51,217 nucleotides of DNA, from NCBI GenBank assembly GCA_002254365.1, contig NIUT01000209.1:1-51217 (forward strand), given 5' to 3'. This document shows, one piece after another, positions 15,706 to 25,741 of the stretch. The notes below the pieces were generated by a model. That model made no database searches and was not told where the DNA came from. It saw only the letters and a program-made list of their open reading frames with translations. The first letter of the stretch is position 1; every line of letters begins with the position of its first letter. The stretch comes from Nitrospira sp. UW-LDO-01. Its GTDB lineage: Bacteria > Nitrospirota > Nitrospiria > Nitrospirales > Nitrospiraceae. The position numbers and the translations under genes were made by a program.

Positions 15706-16797
15706 TCATGACGAGAGTGGGAAGGGTTGTATGATACCGCCACCAAGAACGTCGTCCCCACTATAGAATACAGCCGATTGTCCAGGACTTAATGCTCGCT
15801 GGGGCTGGCTGAATTGGACATGTAAGACCGACGAGTTCAGCAGTGTGAGTGTTGCGAGCGTCGGAGGCGTTGCATACCGGACCTTCACGTACACTTCTGT
15901 ACTCTGGGATGGGAAATCGGGAGCAAACATATTCAGGTCGTCGACGGTGCATTCTGAGTGCAGTCGTTCGCCCGGCCCGAGCACGACTGTATTGGTGGTC
16001 GGGTGTACCTGATGAACGTAAAGACGCTGGCCTGTGGCAATACCAAGGCCGCGACGCTGCCCTGGTGTATAGAACGCAATACCATCATGTCGACCCAGTG
16101 GACGGCCCTCCTGGTCAATAAACAATCCCTGCTTCATTGAATGGGGCGCTTCTTTTTCAAGGAAAGTTCGATAATCACCCTGACTCACGAAGCAGATCTC
16201 CTGGCTTTCCTTGAGCTCTTCCACGGGTAGGCCCAGCGCCTCGGCTTCTCTCCAGACCGTGGCTTTCTCCATGCTGCCTAATGGAAAGAGGAGACGAGGG
16301 AGCCATTCAGCCCGCAGGCGATAGAGAAAATATGTTTGGTCTTTTCGAGGATCGACTGACCGTGAGAGGACGGAGAATCCTCGGTGGTCATGCAATCGCG
16401 CGTAATGCCCGGTTGCCACATAGTCGAAGCTGCGTTGTAGGGCCAGCTCGATAAGGGTATGAATCTTTACCCGTTCATTACATCGGACACAGGGGTTGGG
16501 TGTCGTACCAGTGGTATAACCTTGGATGAAGTCGTCGATGACAGCCTCGCGAAACGTATGCCGGGTATCAACGACCTCGTGCGGGATGTCGAGGAGTTTC
16601 GCGACATGCCGTGCGATCCCAACCTTGCAACAGCCTCGTTCTTGCCACTTCTTTGATGTGGCGGTTGCGTCGTCCTCATGTTCCCATACCTGAAGGGTGA
16701 TGCCATGGACGTCATAGCCCTGGCGGACGAGCAATGCAGCGGCGACGGAGCTATCAACGCCCCCGCTCATACCTAAGAGGACAGATTTCCGATTCAT
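15706..16797 (-). CDS. mnmA: tRNA-specific 2-thiouridylase MnmA
   Basis: LLGMSGGVDSSVAAALL PP-loop, NPCVRCNERVK, TGHYAR, KDQTYFLY. Confidence 0.98.
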   Translation of the reverse strand: MNRKSVLLGMSGGVDSSVAAALLVRQGYDVHGITLQVWEHEDDATATSKKWQERGCCKVGIARHVAKLLDIPHEVVDTRHTFREAVIDDFIQGYTTGTTPNPCVRCNERVKIHTLIELALQRSFDYVATGHYARLHDHRGFSVLSRSVDPRKDQTYFLYRLRAEWLPRLLFPLGSMEKATVWREAEALGLPVEELKESQEICFVSQGDYRTFLEKEAPHSMKQGLFIDQEGRPLGRHDGIAFYTPGQRRGLGIATGQRLYVHQVHPTTNTVVLGPGERLHSECTVDDLNMFAPDFPSQSTEVYVKVRYATPPTLATLTLLNSSVLHVQFSQPQRALSPGQSAVFYSGDDVLGGGIIQPFPLSS

Positions 16798-17060
16798 AGA
16801 ATCGGCATTGTACCGAGGGTCTAGGGGAAAGGGCTAGTCTACATTATGGGTGCGGTGTCTATCAGAACTTCAGCAATGGCGGCGCGACGGTATCCGTCGC
16901 ACGTCCGGTCATCAAGCATGAAGGGTACTTCGTGTTGGCAGTCCAATCCGTCGGGCAGGACAGTCCATGATGTTTGTGCTCCAGGCGGTGTTGTCCATCG
17001 TCGATATGTGGGACCATGAGTGTGGCGAAAGGGTCAGGACTGTCCCGAGGTTTAGGGAGG

Positions 17061-17504
17061 TTAGAGGCTGGTTGAACGGGTTTTCCCCCGATAGGTGGTG
17101 GTGTCATGAGGGTTTTTGGACGAGGACTGCTCTTCCACCCATTTATGGGCACCCATATCGCACATTCCATGGAAATGAGCCCCATCCTCGATAGAGATAC
17201 CAGGGGTACGGATATCGCCAATGAGGATACCTGGTTTCTGGATTTGGATTTTGGCTGTGGCAGAGATGGTGGCGTTGACTTTACCGCTTGTGATGAGGAT
17301 ACCTGCGGAGATCACTCCTTTCACGATGGCTTGCTCGCCGATAATGAGGGTGCCACTGGTGGTGATTTCTCCTTCCACCCGACCGTCAATTCGTATGGTT
17401 CCGTCAAAATTTAAGGTGCCACGAAAATCGACTCCCTTGCTGAGGAAGGTAAAGTTGTCGTCGGGAGCCGTGTCGGTTACCTGTTTTTCTCCGATAGCCC
17501 ACAT
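17061..17504 (-). CDS. Bactofilin (polymer-forming cytoskeletal protein)
   Basis: GVDFRGTLNFDGTIRIDGRVEGEITTSGTLIIGEQAIVKGVI beta-helix repeats. Confidence 0.93.
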   Translation of the reverse strand: MWAIGEKQVTDTAPDDNFTFLSKGVDFRGTLNFDGTIRIDGRVEGEITTSGTLIIGEQAIVKGVISAGILITSGKVNATISATAKIQIQKPGILIGDIRTPGISIEDGAHFHGMCDMGAHKWVEEQSSSKNPHDTTTYRGKTRSTSL

Positions 17505-17625
17505 GAGCGTTCTCTGCTCCTCGTGACAAGCCCGTTGACGAGGAAGTGGTGAACCTAGCACACGGCGTATAAGGCTCGTAGCAAGCTACCGCGTGTCCCT
17601 CACTCACCACTCCGACGGTATTCCG

Positions 17626-18117
17626 CTAGACGGTCAGCCTGCGAACGGGTGGCTCATTAGCGGTCCCAACAGAATGAATCGGGAGATCTTTGTGCACGGG
17701 GCGAGCCTGTTGTTCCATCTCCAAGGTTCCGTTGAATAAGACGCCCTCTTCCATGGAGAGCATTGGAGTGGTGACGCCACCGTTGATCACTGCTGGTGCC
17801 CGCAATTTCATCTTTTCTCGTGCGGTGATATCCCCGGTGATCTTTCCCTTACACACAATAGTCCCGGCCGTGACTTTGGCATTGAGGATGGCATCTTCGC
17901 CAACAAGTAAGACGCCATCCGTATGAATTTCTCCCTCGAGGGTTCCATCAATTCGCACGGTGCCGTTGTAGGAGATGGTCCCCTTGAATACGACTCCTTT
18001 ACCGACGAAGGCGCTGACCTCTTGGCCGGTATCAGGCCGTGGCATGTCGAGTGCCGAGCTCATGGCATCTAAGTCCTTCTCATCCATGCGTCTACCATCT
18101 TGCTTATCTTTCCACAT
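17626..18117 (-). CDS. Bactofilin (polymer-forming cytoskeletal protein)
   Basis: GVVFKGTISYNGTVRIDGTLEGEIHTDGVLLVGEDAILNAKV; good RBS (GAGGGG) before MWKDKQ. Confidence 0.93.
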   Translation of the reverse strand: MWKDKQDGRRMDEKDLDAMSSALDMPRPDTGQEVSAFVGKGVVFKGTISYNGTVRIDGTLEGEIHTDGVLLVGEDAILNAKVTAGTIVCKGKITGDITAREKMKLRAPAVINGGVTTPMLSMEEGVLFNGTLEMEQQARPVHKDLPIHSVGTANEPPVRRLTV

Positions 18118-18282
18118 ACGATCCCCTCCTCTCACAATGTGGGTGGCCCCAGCTGGCACAAACGGTGCGGTGCCTTGCCGTTATGTTCCATATCGGCTGG
18201 TTTGGTGGAGATATTTAGTGGTTGAAGAGGGGAGAGCAAAATATTGTCGTTTAGGAGGGGGCGGGTAGGGTGAGGCCTGGTA

Positions 18283-19137
18283 CTAACCCAAGATGGTTTC
18301 CACGAGCCCGTCAAGTTCATCGGTGGAGAAATAGTGGATGACGAGTTTCCCGCCCTGACCTTGGGGGTGGAGGGTCACTTTGGTTCCCAGACGCTTTTGC
18401 AGTCTGTCTTCAAGATCTCGCCATTGTGAGGTGTGGGCGGTGCGTCCGGCAGGTTTTTTGCCGATGATGGATTGCTCGACGAGCTTCTCTGTCTCGCGAA
18501 CAGATAGATTTCCTGCCGTCACCAGTTTGGCTACGCGGAGTTGCGCTTCTGGTGTGGAGAGACTGAGAAGCGCCTTGGCATGACCGGTGGAAAGGGTTCC
18601 ATCTTCCACAAGAAGCTGTAGATCGGGGTGGAGATGGGTCAGTCGGATGAAGTTCGCGACCGAAGAACGGTCGCGGCCTACCTTGGTGGCAACGGCTTCT
18701 TGGGTCAGTCCAAATTCTTTCATCATGCGTGAATAGGCGCGAGCTGTCTCCATCGGGTTTAAGTCTTCCCGTTGGAGATTTTCCACGAGAGCAAGGAGTA
18801 AGGCTTCCTGATCCGTACAGTTCTTGAGAACAGCCGGGATGACGGTTAGTCCTGCCTCTTTGGAGGCTCGCCAGCGGCGTTCTCCGGCTATTAACTCATA
18901 CGTGCCGTCGCCCTTACGTCGGACCATAATGGGTTGAATAACGCCGCTTTCCTTAATGGATGCTGTAAGCTCAGCGAGTTCATGCTGAAGGAAGGTTTGG
19001 CGTGGCTGGTAGCGATTCGGAACAATCTTGTCGACAGCGATCCGCTGTACGTCTGCGGCGTCTTCAGTCCTGGTCATCCGGGCGGGGGGCAGCAGCGCGT
19101 CGAGTCCTTTACCGAGGGCTTTCTTCTCCATGCGCAA
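18283..19137 (-). CDS. parB: Chromosome partitioning protein ParB
   Basis: RYQPRQTF, ELIAGERRWRASKEAGL, TQEAVATKVGRDRSSVANFIRL. Confidence 0.97.
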   Translation of the reverse strand: MRMEKKALGKGLDALLPPARMTRTEDAADVQRIAVDKIVPNRYQPRQTFLQHELAELTASIKESGVIQPIMVRRKGDGTYELIAGERRWRASKEAGLTVIPAVLKNCTDQEALLLALVENLQREDLNPMETARAYSRMMKEFGLTQEAVATKVGRDRSSVANFIRLTHLHPDLQLLVEDGTLSTGHAKALLSLSTPEAQLRVAKLVTAGNLSVRETEKLVEQSIIGKKPAGRTAHTSQWRDLEDRLQKRLGTKVTLHPQGQGGKLVIHYFSTDELDGLVETILG

Positions 19138-19885
19138 TAAACTCCTTAGCTAGTGATACGTAAGATTGGGACCCGGAGGATGCCATGTTATACAAGATAC
19201 CTGGACGACCGTAACTGGGTGCTTCCGCAAGCGCGACATTGCGGGGGATCACCGATTGGTACACCTTGTGCGCAAAGTGAGAGCGTACTTGGTCTGCTAC
19301 TTGTCGAGAAAGGCTGATGCGTGAATCAAACATGGTGAGGGCGATGCCCTCAATTTCTAGATGTGGATTATATGATTGACGGACAAGATCGATACTTCCG
19401 ATGAGTCTGGTGAGACCTTCCATCGCATAGTATTCGCATTGGACGGGTATGAGTACAGAATTGGCTGCTGTGAGAGCATTGATGGTCAGAATACCAAGCG
19501 CCGGTGGACAATCCAGGAGAATAAAGTCGTACGTGTTTCGTATTTCAGCAATGAGTGACCGAAGATGACCTTCTCGTCCTTCCAGATTCGCGAGCTCCAC
19601 CTCGGCACCCGCAAGATCGGCATTAGCCGGCAAGAGGCTGAGTCCAGAAATGGTTGTTTCTATTATTGATTCTTGAATAGTGCTATTTTTCACGAGACAG
19701 CTGTAGGTGCTGCTTTTCAATGTTCTCTGATCTACCCCAAGGCCACTTGTTGCATTTCCTTGTGGATCCATGTCAATCAATAATACATTTTTCCCCTCAA
19801 GAGCCACTGCTGTTGATAGATTGATGGCAGTGGTTGTCTTTCCCACCCCACCTTTCTGATTAGCAACCGCTATAACTTTTCCCAC
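19109..19885 (-). CDS. parA: Chromosome partitioning ATPase ParA (Soj); likely GTG start
   Basis: GKVIAVANQKGGVGKTTTAINLS deviant Walker A; DFILLDCPPALG. Confidence 0.97.
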   Translation of the reverse strand: MGKVIAVANQKGGVGKTTTAINLSTAVALEGKNVLLIDMDPQGNATSGLGVDQRTLKSSTYSCLVKNSTIQESIIETTISGLSLLPANADLAGAEVELANLEGREGHLRSLIAEIRNTYDFILLDCPPALGILTINALTAANSVLIPVQCEYYAMEGLTRLIGSIDLVRQSYNPHLEIEGIALTMFDSRISLSRQVADQVRSHFAHKVYQSVIPRNVALAEAPSYGRPGILYNMASSGSQSYVSLAKEFIAHGEESPR

Positions 19886-19905
19886 AAGAAGACTCCTAGG
19901 CGAAA

Positions 19906-20598
19906 TTATGTTCCACGTGGAACAGCGTGAGGGGGTAAGTCGACACGATATGAGAATGTTGAGATAGTTCGAGATCCATAGGCATGAGGTAATTCGAACG
20001 TGTAGTCGCCTGCAAAATTCCAATCTCGAGGTAGTAAGGTTCTATCGAATGGCCTAGCTGAATAGATAATCACTTTGCCACCTTCATTCAGTAAGTACCG
20101 CGCTTTCTGAAAAATAAGTGACGGATTAAGCGCTCTGGTCGTTAGATAGTCGTAGGTGATTCCGGCTGGACGTATACTACTGAATCGCTCAATAGTCCCC
20201 TGAAAAACATCAACGCCTTTTAACCGTAGGAGGCCAACAATGAAATGCAGGAATGCCGATTTCTTGTGGGCTGGTTCAACCAATGTCACGCAAAGGTCTG
20301 TTCTGATGATTTTTAATGGGATTCCTGGAAAGCCTGCTCCAGCACCGACATCAAGAATATGGGAGCCAGGTCCGATATTCACGGCTTTTAGCGCCGCTAG
20401 TGAATCAATGAAGTGTTTGACAATCACTTCCTCATCTTTAGTGATGGCAGTGAGATTGAATGATTGATTCCAAATCTTGAGCTGTTTCAGATACAGAAGA
20501 AATAGTTGCGCCTGGACCGGTTCAATGGTGATGCCAATTTCACTTGCACCTTCATGAAGTAGCCGCTCAAGTTCTCCAGGTTGTTCCACGTGGAACAA
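19906..20598 (-). CDS. rsmG: 16S rRNA (guanine527-N7)-methyltransferase RsmG
   Basis: ILDVGAGAGFPGIPLKI SAM motif; FNLTAI; position between mnmG and parA. Confidence 0.96.
   Translation of the reverse strand: MFHVEQPGELERLLHEGASEIGITIEPVQAQLFLLYLKQLKIWNQSFNLTAITKDEEVIVKHFIDSLAALKAVNIGPGSHILDVGAGAGFPGIPLKIIRTDLCVTLVEPAHKKSAFLHFIVGLLRLKGVDVFQGTIERFSSIRPAGITYDYLTTRALNPSLIFQKARYLLNEGGKVIIYSARPFDRTLLPRDWNFAGDYTFELPHAYGSRTISTFSYRVDLPPHAVPRGT
19909..19924. promoter_or_regulatory. parS site 1 (TGTTCCACGTGGAACA), inside rsmG 3' end
   Basis: Perfect 16-bp palindrome matching the bacterial parS consensus, next to parAB. Confidence 0.93.
20582..20597. promoter_or_regulatory. parS site 2 (TGTTCCACGTGGAACA), at the rsmG translation start
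   Basis: Perfect 16-bp palindrome (18 bp if extended: TTGTTCCACGTGGAACAA). Confidence 0.93.
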
Positions 20599-20657
20599 TT
20601 ACGCTGATACCGAGAGGAGGTCAATAGAAAAGGTGGCAATCAAGAATTTTCAGGTAG

Positions 20658-22538
20658 TTAAGCATTGTACTCGTGAATTTGCCGTCTATTTTTTTCAATT
20701 GCCACGAGCAGTAAAGAGATGGCGGCAGGAGTAATTCCAGAAATTCGTGATGCCTGGCCGACTGTCTCCGGCTTCACTCGATTAAGTTTCTCACGGACCT
20801 CACGTGAAAAACCAGAGACCATGTTGTAATCAAACGAACTGGGTATCGATTTTTTCTCAAACTTCCTGAACTTTTCAACTTGCCGCACTTGCCTCTGTAT
20901 ATATCCTTCGTATTTGATTTGAAGCTCCACTTCCTCGGCAATATCATCATCCACTGGTTGTATTTCAAAAATATTCATAAGCTCATGATAACGAGCTTCT
21001 TGTCTGCGAAGTAACTGGGCCATAGATTGGACAGAAGAGGCATTTTCAAGATAGGTGCCCCTTGTCCGCAGGCTAATCTGTTCGGTAAATTTCGGTCTTG
21101 AAATCCGTAGATTTGAAATCTCCGATTCGATCATTTCCCTTTTACGAACCAATTTTTCATACTCGACTAGCGGGATTAGGCCAAGGCCGTATCCGATCTC
21201 CATGAGACGAAGGTCGGCATTCCCATGTCGAAGCAGTAATCGGTATTCAGCTCTCGACGTGAACATTCGGTAAGGCTCATAGGCATCCTTAGTGATGAGA
21301 TCATCCACCAGCACACCTATATAGGCTTGAGAGCGATCCAGAACAAAGGGTGGGCGTTCTCTGATTTTGAGGACCGCATTAATCCCGGCGACCAAGCCTT
21401 GTGCAGCCGCTTCTTCATATCCTGAGGTCCCATTTATCTGACCTGCGTGATACAGCCCGGTCACCAATTTGGTTTCAAGCGTTCGGTACAGTTGCCGAGG
21501 AGGAAAATAGTCATACTCTATCGCATAGCCAGGTTTAAGTATTTTCGCGTGCTCCAAGCCCGGGATGGTTTTGAGTATCGCGGCTTGGACATCGACAGGC
21601 AGGCTTGTTGAAATGCCGTTTGGGTAGAACTCGTTTGAGTCTAGGCCTTCTGGTTCGATAAAAATCTGGTGCCGTTCCTTATCGGCAAAACGTATGACCT
21701 TGTCTTCGATCGACGGACAATAGCGAGGGCCGGTGGAATCAATCACACCACTGTACAGCGGGGAACGATCTAAGTTTTGCCGAATCAGTTCGTGTGTTGC
21801 CAGCCCTGTATACGTCAAATGGCAAAGAATCTGCTTCGTGGTGATGGCCTGCGTGCGATAGGAGAATGAAGGAGGCGGTGTATCACCAGGTTGAGGAGCC
21901 ATCACGGAGAAATCGATGGTTTCTTTATCTAAGCGGGGCGGCGTTCCGGTCTTTAATCGGCCGAGCTCGAAACCAAGGTCTCGCATGCAATCAGAAAGCC
22001 GTTCTGCCGAGGCTTCGCCGGCGCGCCCAGCCGGGAAATGTTGCATGCCTATATGGATAAGTCCCTTAAGAAAAGTACCTGATGTCAGGATGACGGCTTT
22101 CGCGTTCATCGTCTCGCCCGACCCGGTGACAATTCCGGTCACGGCTCCACCGTGCACCAACAATCGATCGACAACACCCTCCGCCATCGTCAGCAGAGGT
22201 TCTAATCTGAGTGTTCTTTGCATCGCATGTCGATACAGGGCTTTATCACACTGAACCCGTAAGGCACGGACCGCCGGCCCTTTGCTCGTATTGATAAATC
22301 TAAACTGGATGCCGGATTGATCGGTATTTCGGCCCATCTCGCCGCCTAGCGCGTCGATTTCCTTGACGAGGTGTCCCTTGGCAATCCCACCGATGGCAGG
22401 ATTACACGACATCTGGGCAATGCGGGAAAGGTCCATCGTCAAGAGCAAGGTTGTGGCACCCATCCGCGCCGAAGCCAGAGCCGCTTCACAGCCTGCATGT
22501 CCTCCTCCAACCACGATCACGTCAAACGTCTGTGCCAC
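20658..22538 (-). CDS. mnmG: tRNA uridine-5-carboxymethylaminomethyl modification enzyme MnmG/GidA
   Basis: [43 protein letters not shown]. Confidence 0.98.
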
Positions 22539-22547
22539 GCATTCTCC

Positions 22548-23993
22548 CTACTTGCCGATACAAAACTCTGAAAATATTCGCTCCAATACGTCGTCCGAGG
22601 TAATACTCCCAATAATCTCTCCCAAGGCATCGGCCGCATCGTGGAGGTCCACGGACAGAAGTTCGGGCTGCGCTCTTCTCTCGATGGAGGATAGGGCCAG
22701 TTGAATAGCAGCGATGGCCTGGTCCAATGCCACACGATGACGGACATTCGTGATCACCACCGCCTCATTGGATTCAAAGGATGCCGTGAGGAAACGAGAG
22801 GTGATGGCTATCTTGAGCTCCTCAAGGCCCTCACCTGTTTGTGTGGAAGTGGGGAGAATACGCTGGCATAAACGCTTTTCAACCTCCTCACAGAGAGGCT
22901 GTATGGTGCGCGAGGTCAATACATCTATTTTGTTTACAACGACCAGATGCTTAGGTTCCAGCGGTGGGAAGCGAAACTCAGAAACTCCGGCCTTCTGAAC
23001 CTCACGAGCATCGACCAGATGGACAATTAAGTCCCCTTGCGCTTGAGCATCCCTGGATCGCTTGATTCCCTCCTGTTCCACCACATCTACCGTGTCGCGT
23101 AAGCCAGCGGTATCCACCAGTGTGATTGGGAGACCATTCCAGATAACTGCTTCCTCAATAAAATCGCGGGTCGTTCCAGGGACATCGGTAACAATCGCAC
23201 GATTGTCACGAATGAGGCTATTGAACAAACTGGACTTTCCCGCATTCGGAGGCCCAGCGAGTACTACTCGTACTCCCTCTCGCAAAGCACGACCGGTCCG
23301 GGCGGTGTCCAAGACACTCTGTATCTGGCTCGCGATATGCTGGAGGCTCGTTCTAAGCTCATCTCGAGTGACGAAAGAAATCTCCTCCTCTGAAAAATCG
23401 ATTTCAGCCTCAATCCGTGCCTGAAGCGATAAAAGGGTAGTGCGTAGGTCCTGCACATAACGTCCCAAATCTCCACGGAGCTGCCGCTGAGCAATGCCAA
23501 GAGCAAACTCAGACTTTGCTTTGATGGTATCTAACACTGCTTCAGCTTGAGACAGATCCAAGCGACCATTCAGGAAAGCACGCTTCGTGAATTCACCAGG
23601 TTGTGCCAGCCGAGCACCAGCTGCAATGCAAGACTCACAGACGCGACGGAGTACCGTCATATTGCCATGGCAATGGAATTCCACCACATCCTCAGCGGTA
23701 AACGAGCGTGGCCCTTTCATGTAGACAACCAAGCCTTCATCAATAATGTCTTCCTGCATCACCGGTGGATGGGAATGGCCGGCCTGATCGGCATGAGGAG
23801 CCGAGATCATATCCGCGAGATGGAGAGTATGTGAGGGGAGGGTGGTGAGGGTTCCGTTTGTGCGGAGCCTCACAATTTTGGAGGCGATGTCTGTTGCATG
23901 CTGACCGCTAATGCGGATGATCCCAATGCCTCCCTCACCCATCGGGGTTGCAATGGCGCAAATTGTGTCCTCAGTTGCTCCATCGATAGGCAC
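22548..23993 (-). CDS. mnmE: tRNA modification GTPase MnmE/TrmE
   Basis: DTICAIATPMGEGGIGIIRISG; GPPNAGKSSLFN; VPGTTRDFIEE; C-terminal FCIGK. Confidence 0.98.
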   Translation of the reverse strand: MPIDGATEDTICAIATPMGEGGIGIIRISGQHATDIASKIVRLRTNGTLTTLPSHTLHLADMISAPHADQAGHSHPPVMQEDIIDEGLVVYMKGPRSFTAEDVVEFHCHGNMTVLRRVCESCIAAGARLAQPGEFTKRAFLNGRLDLSQAEAVLDTIKAKSEFALGIAQRQLRGDLGRYVQDLRTTLLSLQARIEAEIDFSEEEISFVTRDELRTSLQHIASQIQSVLDTARTGRALREGVRVVLAGPPNAGKSSLFNSLIRDNRAIVTDVPGTTRDFIEEAVIWNGLPITLVDTAGLRDTVDVVEQEGIKRSRDAQAQGDLIVHLVDAREVQKAGVSEFRFPPLEPKHLVVVNKIDVLTSRTIQPLCEEVEKRLCQRILPTSTQTGEGLEELKIAITSRFLTASFESNEAVVITNVRHRVALDQAIAAIQLALSSIERRAQPELLSVDLHDAADALGEIIGSITSDDVLERIFSEFCIGK

Positions 23994-24043
23994 GATCCAC
24001 CATAGTCGTGACGCCTAGTCGTATGAGGCCAGCCCAGGGAACT

Positions 24044-25741
24044 TCACTTTGGCTTGCTCGGCTCATCCGTAGTCAGAGCCACTGATCGATTTTTAAGAAA
24101 GAACCGGTCCGTGACAAACTGCTGGGCGATGGACAAGACGTTGTTGGTCAGCCAGTACAAGACTAAACCAGCAGGAAAATTAATAAATAGGAACGTCATG
24201 ACGACGGGCAGCATCAACATCATCTTCGCCTGGGCTGGATCCATCGTCGTGGGCTGAATCTTCTGCATCACCATCATACTGATTCCCATGATAATGGGCA
24301 GAATGTAATAGGGATCCTGAACGGACAGATCAGTGATCCAGAGGCCCAGGGGCGCTTGGCGAAGGTCAATCGTCATGTAAAGAATATTGAACAGCGACAC
24401 GAATACCGGCATTTGAAGGACCATCGGGAGGCAGCCACCCACCGGATTGACCTTATGGTCGCGGTACAGTTTGATCAGCTCCCTATTCAATCGGTCACGA
24501 TCATCCTTGAACTTCTCTTGGAGTGCAGCCACCTTCGGTTGGATCGTCTGCATCTGTTTCATCGACGAGTAGCTCTTGTACTGCAAGGGGACGAATAACA
24601 GCTTGATTGCAACGGTCAATAGGATGATGGTGATACCGTAATTGTGGGTGTACTCGTTGATGGAACGAAGTACAGAGAAGATTGGTTTGGCCACAGCCCG
24701 CACCGTGTCCCAGCTACCGAACAGAAACCATCCGAAATCAATCGTATCCTCAAGTCGGATATGCAAGTTTTGAAGGATGTCGAACTCCTTCGGTCCCGCA
24801 AATAGCTGTAACGTGAACGGGGCACCTGATGGATCGATGCCCATGCGAACACCGGTGGATACGAGTTTCTCACCTTGTTTCTTCGGCCAAGCGGAGGCAC
24901 TCCCTTTTGGAATAAGCGCGGACATGAAATACTTATCCTGCAAGGCCGTCCAAGCCAAGGCACCTTTACGCTCCGTGTCGGATTCCGGAGCATCAGTAAC
25001 AAGCTTGTCGTCGATCAACGACACCGTCCCTACGGAACCGATAAAGCCCTCGCCCCACTCCACTACGCCAAAATTAGTGCCCAATTCGACTTTCAGCGGC
25101 CCTGTCAGTCCTTTGGACGTCAAGCTGATGTCCACGATGTAGCTGTCAGAATGAAACGTGAGTTGTTTTTCAAGGAGTACGCTGGAACCAGGGTTGCTAT
25201 AGGAGAACGTGAGGTGGCCAGTGGGATGATCCCGGTCCAAGGTCGTAAAATCTTTCTCCACCCTGTAGAAACCTTCCCTCAAATCCTTCGCCAGTGCCGC
25301 GTCGTCGGTTGTAACGGTGAGGGGGTCAGCAAATTTTCCCCCTTGTCGAACGAGCTGGACAAAAGACTTCGCATCAGAGCTGCTGCGATATCGCTTCAGT
25401 TCCCAGCTTGTCAGGATGGCTCCTCTGGAGGTGAACTTGGCACGATAGAGCTCAGTCTCCACCTCAACTGTTTCTGCAGTGACAGACTCTGTGCGAGCGG
25501 ATGGCACCTTTGGGTGATCAATACCTGGGGTGCCAGGTGATTCCACGGCTTTCCCTGTCGTAGGAGGCGCCGGCTGGTTTCCTGAACTGGTGCCGGGAGC
25601 AGAGGCCGACTCATCAGGGACTGCTACCGTAGAATCTGAAACGGTTGGTGGCGGCAGCAACCCCAATCCTTTGAGGGCATATTCATATCCAAAGACAATC
25701 GCGGCCGAGAGTATTAAGAAGACAACCAGGCGCTTTTCCAT
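24044..25741 (-). CDS. yidC: Membrane protein insertase YidC
   Basis: Periplasmic domain plus YSSMKQMQTIQPKVAALQEKFKDD, GGCLPMVLQMPVFVSLF. Confidence 0.98.
   Translation of the reverse strand: MEKRLVVFLILSAAIVFGYEYALKGLGLLPPPTVSDSTVAVPDESASAPGTSSGNQPAPPTTGKAVESPGTPGIDHPKVPSARTESVTAETVEVETELYRAKFTSRGAILTSWELKRYRSSSDAKSFVQLVRQGGKFADPLTVTTDDAALAKDLREGFYRVEKDFTTLDRDHPTGHLTFSYSNPGSSVLLEKQLTFHSDSYIVDISLTSKGLTGPLKVELGTNFGVVEWGEGFIGSVGTVSLIDDKLVTDAPESDTERKGALAWTALQDKYFMSALIPKGSASAWPKKQGEKLVSTGVRMGIDPSGAPFTLQLFAGPKEFDILQNLHIRLEDTIDFGWFLFGSWDTVRAVAKPIFSVLRSINEYTHNYGITIILLTVAIKLLFVPLQYKSYSSMKQMQTIQPKVAALQEKFKDDRDRLNRELIKLYRDHKVNPVGGCLPMVLQMPVFVSLFNILYMTIDLRQAPLGLWITDLSVQDPYYILPIIMGISMMVMQKIQPTTMDPAQAKMMLMLPVVMTFLFINFPAGLVLYWLTNNVLSIAQQFVTDRFFLKNRSVALTTDEPSKPK

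Follow-up and report, generated by a model that had tools for sequence, protein, structure and literature searches.

The gene rsmG (gidB), for the 16S rRNA m7G527 methyltransferase, adjoins parAB in very many bacteria, and we know of no reason that is generally given for this linkage. The Nitrospira locus described here raises the question in an acute form, in that rsmG is bounded by two copies of parS, one of which contains the start of the gene: what does a chromosomal centromere site do at a start codon? In the window, by which we mean the whole stretch of 51,217 nucleotides that was analysed, rsmG occupies 19906..20598 on the minus strand, encodes 230 amino acids from a TTG codon and matches PF02527 with E = 2e-34. 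A first reading of the letters without database searches (the sequence-only reading) had placed identical perfect palindromes at 19909-19924 and 20582-20597, and both are exact at these coordinates. The 5' site (parS1, 20582..20597) and the 3' site (parS2, 19909..19924), neither with a strand assigned, each read TGTTCCACGTGGAACA and match the parS consensus TGTTYCACGTGRAACA without a mismatch. The last two bases (TG) of the start codon of rsmG fall within parS1, as do the codons for FHVEQ, and parS2 codes for VPRGT, the C-terminus of RsmG in the window, with the TAA stop codon just past the site.

A search of the 3.91 Mb draft genome that allowed up to three mismatches returned these two as the only perfect parS sites, the next-best parS-like sequence carrying two mismatches. 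Shuffling the window 100 times with dinucleotide composition preserved gave a mean of 0.2 matches at three or fewer mismatches per shuffled window. The cognate parA and parB are encoded directly downstream of the rsmG/parS pair, with all Pfam domains present. parA (19109..19885, minus strand) has AAA_31/CbiA matches and a GTG start at 19885, with a Shine-Dalgarno-like TAGGAG at 19898-19893 that comes after parS2. The product of parB (18283..19137, minus strand), the cognate parS-binding CTPase clamp, has ParB_N, HTH_ParB and ParB_C domains and matches solved ParB relatives (best E 3e-57). The two palindromes would be the full set of exact parS loading sites for the ParB of this chromosome, binding itself being predicted from the sequence.

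On the other side of rsmG, directly upstream, lies mnmG (gidA; 20658..22538, minus strand), whose stop codon is 59 nt before the rsmG TTG; this gap is 22-193 nt in relatives. Two consecutive genes directly downstream of parB (17061-17561 and 17626-18159, minus strand) are bactofilin-like, as judged from sequence, and a bactofilin-like neighbourhood beside parB recurs in another locus of the set (L216). A bactofilin gene adjoins parAB in Bdellovibrio too (PMC10547168). Across 15706-25741, all on the minus strand, an MnmA-like thiouridylase, mnmG and an MnmE-like GTPase, all of tRNA U34 modification, surround the rsmG-parAB-bactofilin block, the MnmA-like and MnmE-like identities resting on the same kind of judgement. 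After these genes come yidC and rnpA, and no dnaA was seen beside them.

Where rsmG translation begins is tightly constrained by its reading frame. The sequence-only reading had pointed to an in-frame TAA and to the lack of an ATG for many codons, both of which were borne out: the TAA (20601-20599) immediately precedes the TTG (20598-20596), after which FHVEQ follows directly, and within the first 48 codons no in-frame ATG, GTG or TTG was found beyond it other than a GTG at codon 4, which itself lies within parS1. Given the upstream TAA and the 48 codons free of other starts, parS1 holds all usable rsmG starts, and on this reading of the frame translation must begin in parS1 if RsmG does not start at some very rare codon. 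Two candidates result. The first is the TTG (20596..20598, minus strand), which is A-, G- or T-TG in relatives and never CTG. The second is the codon-4 GTG (20587..20589, minus strand), which lies at the predicted transcription start discussed below and would possibly be leaderless.

To see how widely this arrangement is kept, RsmG loci were gathered from the family, from other genome contigs and from the phylum, and the frame at each locus was taken from the RsmG profile. The 5' parS stands at the rsmG start in one fixed frame (NTG-FHVE[Q/H]) in 66 of the 68 Nitrospiraceae loci, and most of the 41 family genomes scanned have exactly two exact parS sites, both at rsmG. RsmG itself has diverged to a median pairwise identity of 39%. 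Within parS1, the entropy at third codon positions is 0.12 for F and 0 for each of H, V and E, whereas the third-position entropy is 0.8-1.95 at about 40 other RsmG codons whose amino acid is conserved to at least 90%. Third positions that are frozen in parS1 and free elsewhere indicate a constraint on the DNA itself, which is what one would expect of a site bound by ParB. The proposals that parS sits at both ends of rsmG and that translation starts at or inside the 5' site thus hold up well, with the only perfect sites of the genome, a pattern kept across Nitrospiraceae and a fixed frame with codon-level constraint. Within the family, relatives in which rsmG starts away from a parS and the palindrome is gone belong to one genus only, g15, whose two genomes (L112 and L113) are the two exceptions among the 68 loci.

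These two g15 genomes are a natural case of a chromosome with one parS: parS1 has decayed to TGTCCTCCGTGCACCA and TGTGCCCCGTGCATCA, respectively, and parS2 and the upstream box are kept. Another assembly (G010) holds two differing parS-rsmG-parS blocks on its contigs C107 and C139, perhaps from mixed strains. In genus g7 (G007, G026, G036) no RsmG match was found, nor any exact parS in the two genomes that were scanned for it. parB of this genus was recovered only in G026, at the end of a contig, where locus L216 breaks off just upstream of parB. A joint loss of parS and rsmG was considered for g7 and set aside on account of this break; the absence is more probably an assembly gap than a true loss.

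The base directly before parS1 bears on the NTG candidate. Among the 66 Nitrospiraceae loci with the site, T stands there 33 times, A 18 times and G 15 times, and C is absent; the RsmG tree requires at least 11 changes of this base, none of which produced a C. The chance that 11 changes would avoid C is about (2/3)^11, or about 0.01, a rough figure that assumes equal bases and ignores base bias. That C never appears despite at least 11 changes supports NTG as a start codon, and the NTG reading is made more credible by the Bdellovibrio-type phylum, where an ATG became fused to parS independently and is preceded by a Shine-Dalgarno sequence (see below). The longest Shine-Dalgarno-like match measures 0-3 nt before the NTG in 59 of 68 loci and before the GTG in 56 of 68; for comparison, it measures 4-6 nt before parA in 30 of 57 cases from the same genomes.

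The lack of a clear Shine-Dalgarno before either start fits a suggestion of the sequence-only reading, namely that the parS palindrome in the mRNA masks the start codon. In its worked-out form, a hairpin would bury the start codon and tune RsmG synthesis. The predicted fold does have a 6-bp stem and an ACGU loop and includes the TG of the start codon. However, the 91-nt region folds no better than its shuffles (z = 0.08), the palindrome is already accounted for by ParB binding, and a transcript from the predicted promoter would lack the hairpin because it would begin inside the palindrome. Masking of the start codon by RNA structure, which gains no special support from the fold, was rejected on the strength of the shuffles, and we regard translational control of this kind as very improbable.

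The 3' end of rsmG is not on a par with the 5' end. The sequence-only reading had proposed dual coding at both ends of rsmG; the overlap at the 5' end is family-wide (66 of 68 loci) but that at the 3' end is mostly local. At 47 of the 63 loci where a 3' site is visible, the stop codon of rsmG precedes parS2 by 3-34 nt, so that the site falls between rsmG and parA. In 10 of 63 the frame reads exactly through parS2 to a stop codon directly after it; among these are the window and its close relatives, which share the VPRGT ending. In the remaining 6 of 63 the frame continues further beyond the site. Dual coding at the 3' end is a minor lineage feature, made up of the close relatives of the window plus scattered cases. 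Frames that stop exactly at a parS are found elsewhere too, as at L176 and L197. The distance between parS1 and parS2 varies among loci, with extremes of 649 and 741 bp; this variation is at odds with a fixed phase, and constant helical phasing of the two sites was rejected for this reason.

Upstream of parS1 the family alignment is almost unconserved, apart from a TTGAC starting 27 nt before parS, a TT, and a CGTA ending 3 nt before parS. In the window these elements include a -35-like TTGACC (20619..20624, minus strand), the TTGAC of which is shared by all 68 family loci, and, 17 nt past it, a -10-like TAATTG (20596..20601, minus strand), which overlaps the first two bases of parS1 and the TAA of which is the in-frame stop before the TTG. 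The distance from TTGAC[C/G] to the TA is 17 nt in 52 and 18 nt in 13 of the 68 loci. The TA provides the first two bases of the -10 hexamer and the TG of parS its last two, and at the sequence level parS1 thus overlaps core promoter-like elements. At two loci (L025 and L028) the distance from the TA to parS is altered, yet a TA box follows TTGAC after 17 nt here too; at the two g15 loci, where parS1 is destroyed, TTGAC...CGTAG-ATG and the codon-4 GTG are retained. An element of the form TTGAC-N17-TA with its -10 overlapping parS, which the sequence-only reading did not contain, suggests control of transcription and not of translation.

Conservation of the -10 box is limited to the T and A of TATAAT (variants TAATTG, TAGATG and TAAGTG), and a generic promoter scan made no call at the TTGAC/-10-like element. 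The upstream regions of tRNA genes in the same genome, of which there are few examples, carry TTGACT-N18-TAATGT and TTGACA-N18-TACTGT; with such imperfect boxes at tRNA genes, a weak -10 may be normal in this genome. The poor -10 is also one ground for a different reading, in which TTGAC...CGTA is not a promoter but is bound by a second factor acting jointly with ParB at parS1. A TT-n-R-CG is conserved 10 to 5 nt before parS1 (20602-20607 in the window; 66 family loci), immediately ahead of the TA that begins the -10-like box. No sigma70 promoter feature accounts for this CG or for the TT, which stands three bases upstream of it; both fall outside a sigma70 -10. On the other hand, TTGAC with 17 or 18 nt to the TA is sigma70 geometry, the tRNA upstream regions are similar, and matches to the extended TTGAC...CGTA motif elsewhere in the genome were at chance level only, which also ruled out a genome-wide regulon sharing the box. 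A site for a second factor is therefore improbable in our view, though less so than the mRNA hairpin.

The association of parS with rsmG is by no means confined to Nitrospiraceae, and its uniqueness was rejected from loci in alphaproteobacteria, the Hydrogenedentota phylum and the Bdellovibrio-type phylum. In Methylobacterium, Sinorhizobium and Shinella (alphaproteobacteria; L132-L134, L143) a parS lies at about codon 20 of rsmG and is read as VSRET, and in Sphingopyxis and Sphingomonas it lies near the C-terminus and is read as FHVEH. Many genomes of the Hydrogenedentota phylum have a parS in the C-terminal third of rsmG plus one after the stop codon, several others have a parS after the stop codon, and the 3' site alone is common among those Nitrospirota that do not belong to the order. 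In the Bdellovibrio-type phylum, two genomes (G165 and G182; L178 and L191) have an ATG made of an A plus parS, giving the N-termini FHVEQ and FHVEH, with the clear Shine-Dalgarno sequences gaggggggttatctaATG and gaggggggttatctaATGTTCCACGTGGAACA and a second parS just past the rsmG stop codon. The TTGAC-N17-TA box is absent upstream of the ATG-parS fusion in these two genomes, an independent, convergent invention without promoter overlap. Elsewhere in that phylum (L194, L196 and L197) an rsmG-like gene ends with two parS sites separated by only 31 nt, as against about 670 bp in Nitrospiraceae. The dual use at the ends of rsmG had been called unusual, but a parS in rsmG or at its ends is not unique and recurs in related forms in alphaproteobacteria, sphingomonads, Hydrogenedentota and the Bdellovibrio-type phylum and, according to the literature, in Thermus and mycobacteria.

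This recurrence in several phyla, in varied frames and places, is what would be expected if the sites were plain centromere sites: parS is placed beside parAB, rsmG is always there, a compact operon forces the overlap, and no regulatory meaning is attached to it. The intergenic position of parS2 in most family members points the same way, and this reading is the main rival to ours. What weighs against it is that the spacing of TTGAC-N17/18-TA-parS is fixed in 65 of 68 loci and that the box outlives the loss of parS; both argue for an extra constrained element locked onto parS1. Also on this side stands a sister family, f2 (L074 and L075), where parS lies just before the rsmG ATG with no TTGAC box there. 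On balance we consider a purely centromeric role rather unlikely.

We lean, by a small measure, towards the reading that parS1 is at once a ParB loading site, the start region of rsmG and the operator of an rsmG-parA-parB promoter through which ParAB would be subject to negative feedback. In this three-in-one element of Nitrospiraceae, the rsmG start would be either the NTG, the TG of which is bases 1-2 of parS, or the in-frame GTG at parS bases 9-11, and the -10 and start point would belong to a sigma70-like promoter. The promoter TTGAC-N17-TAnnTG would drive rsmG-parA-parB, and ParB on parS1 would block RNA polymerase at the -10/start region, so that occupancy of parS1 would turn down rsmG-parA-parB and limit the supply of ParA and ParB. 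The same loading at parS1 would seed the segregation complex. parS2, in front of parA, would be a second loading site, and ParB-CTP clamps loaded at both sites would slide outward, a spreading that would enclose rsmG.

Two points complicate this model. Sigma70 promoters start transcription about 7 nt past the -10, which would put the transcript start on the G of the in-frame GTG in parS1 or on an adjoining base and make the transcript nearly leaderless. An NTG start would then need read-through from mnmG because the predicted transcription start lies downstream of the NTG; the predicted promoter favours the GTG, and conservation of the NTG and of the promoter would thus be opposed. The stricter version, in which a single sequence of 16 bp serves as centromere, as -10/start point of the promoter for the par operon and as start region of a leaderless rsmG, is a tentative proposal that we hold to be less likely than not. 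Secondly, chromosomal ParB leaves parS by sliding when CTP is present, and parS1 itself may be occupied only briefly, which counts against repression. If the stricter version were true, segregation, ParAB dosage and a ribosome-maturation enzyme would be coupled via a single ParB-occupied site under triple selection. ParB at parS1 could set the expression of rsmG-parA-parB, and the Nitrospiraceae case would offer a testable reason for the linkage of rsmG to parAB. The arrangement also bears on how centromeres tolerate transcription and, as a gene start that can be fixed by a DNA-binding site, on annotation (N-termini MFHVEQ/MFHVEH).

Parts of this arrangement have counterparts in known systems. 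The closest is Mycobacterium bovis BCG, where a sigma70-like gidB promoter, P1gidB, has been mapped with its -10 overlapping parS, and where competition between ParB and RNA polymerase was proposed (Casart et al. 2008, PMC2346475). The likeness extends to a parS upstream of gidB in gidB-parA-parB and to two parS sites per chromosome. In BCG, however, parS is not reported as a start codon, the second parS lies inside parA and not between gidB and parA, and the -35 and -10 sequences differ, whereas the Nitrospira fusion is conserved across a whole family. In Thermus thermophilus the sole chromosomal parS (parSc) is within gidB next to parA, and its binding by ParB was shown by EMSA (PMC4409726). 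It resembles the present case in its place within the coding sequence of gidB, immediately ahead of parA, and differs in being a single site that is not reported at the start codon and for which no promoter fusion is described. The alphaproteobacterial rsmG genes share a parS in their 5' coding part ahead of parAB, but it is in another frame (VSRET) and past the start codon, with no second parS at the end of rsmG in the loci seen. In Pseudomonas aeruginosa, ParB represses promoters next to the intergenic parS3 and parS4 (PMC5521831). These promoters adjoin parS as in our model, with repression shown there and proposed here; they drive PA0011 and PA0013 and not the par operon, and the intragenic parS1 and parS2 of that species have no such promoter effect at native ParB level (PMC5521831). 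Among openly licensed papers we found no description of a start codon formed by parS, nor of the family-wide Nitrospira arrangement. Precedents for a parS at the gidB/rsmG promoter are known, and beside them the family-wide fusion of parS1, start codon and promoter-like box appears to be new and under-described; the parS-rsmG architecture of Nitrospiraceae on which it is built is real and deeply conserved.
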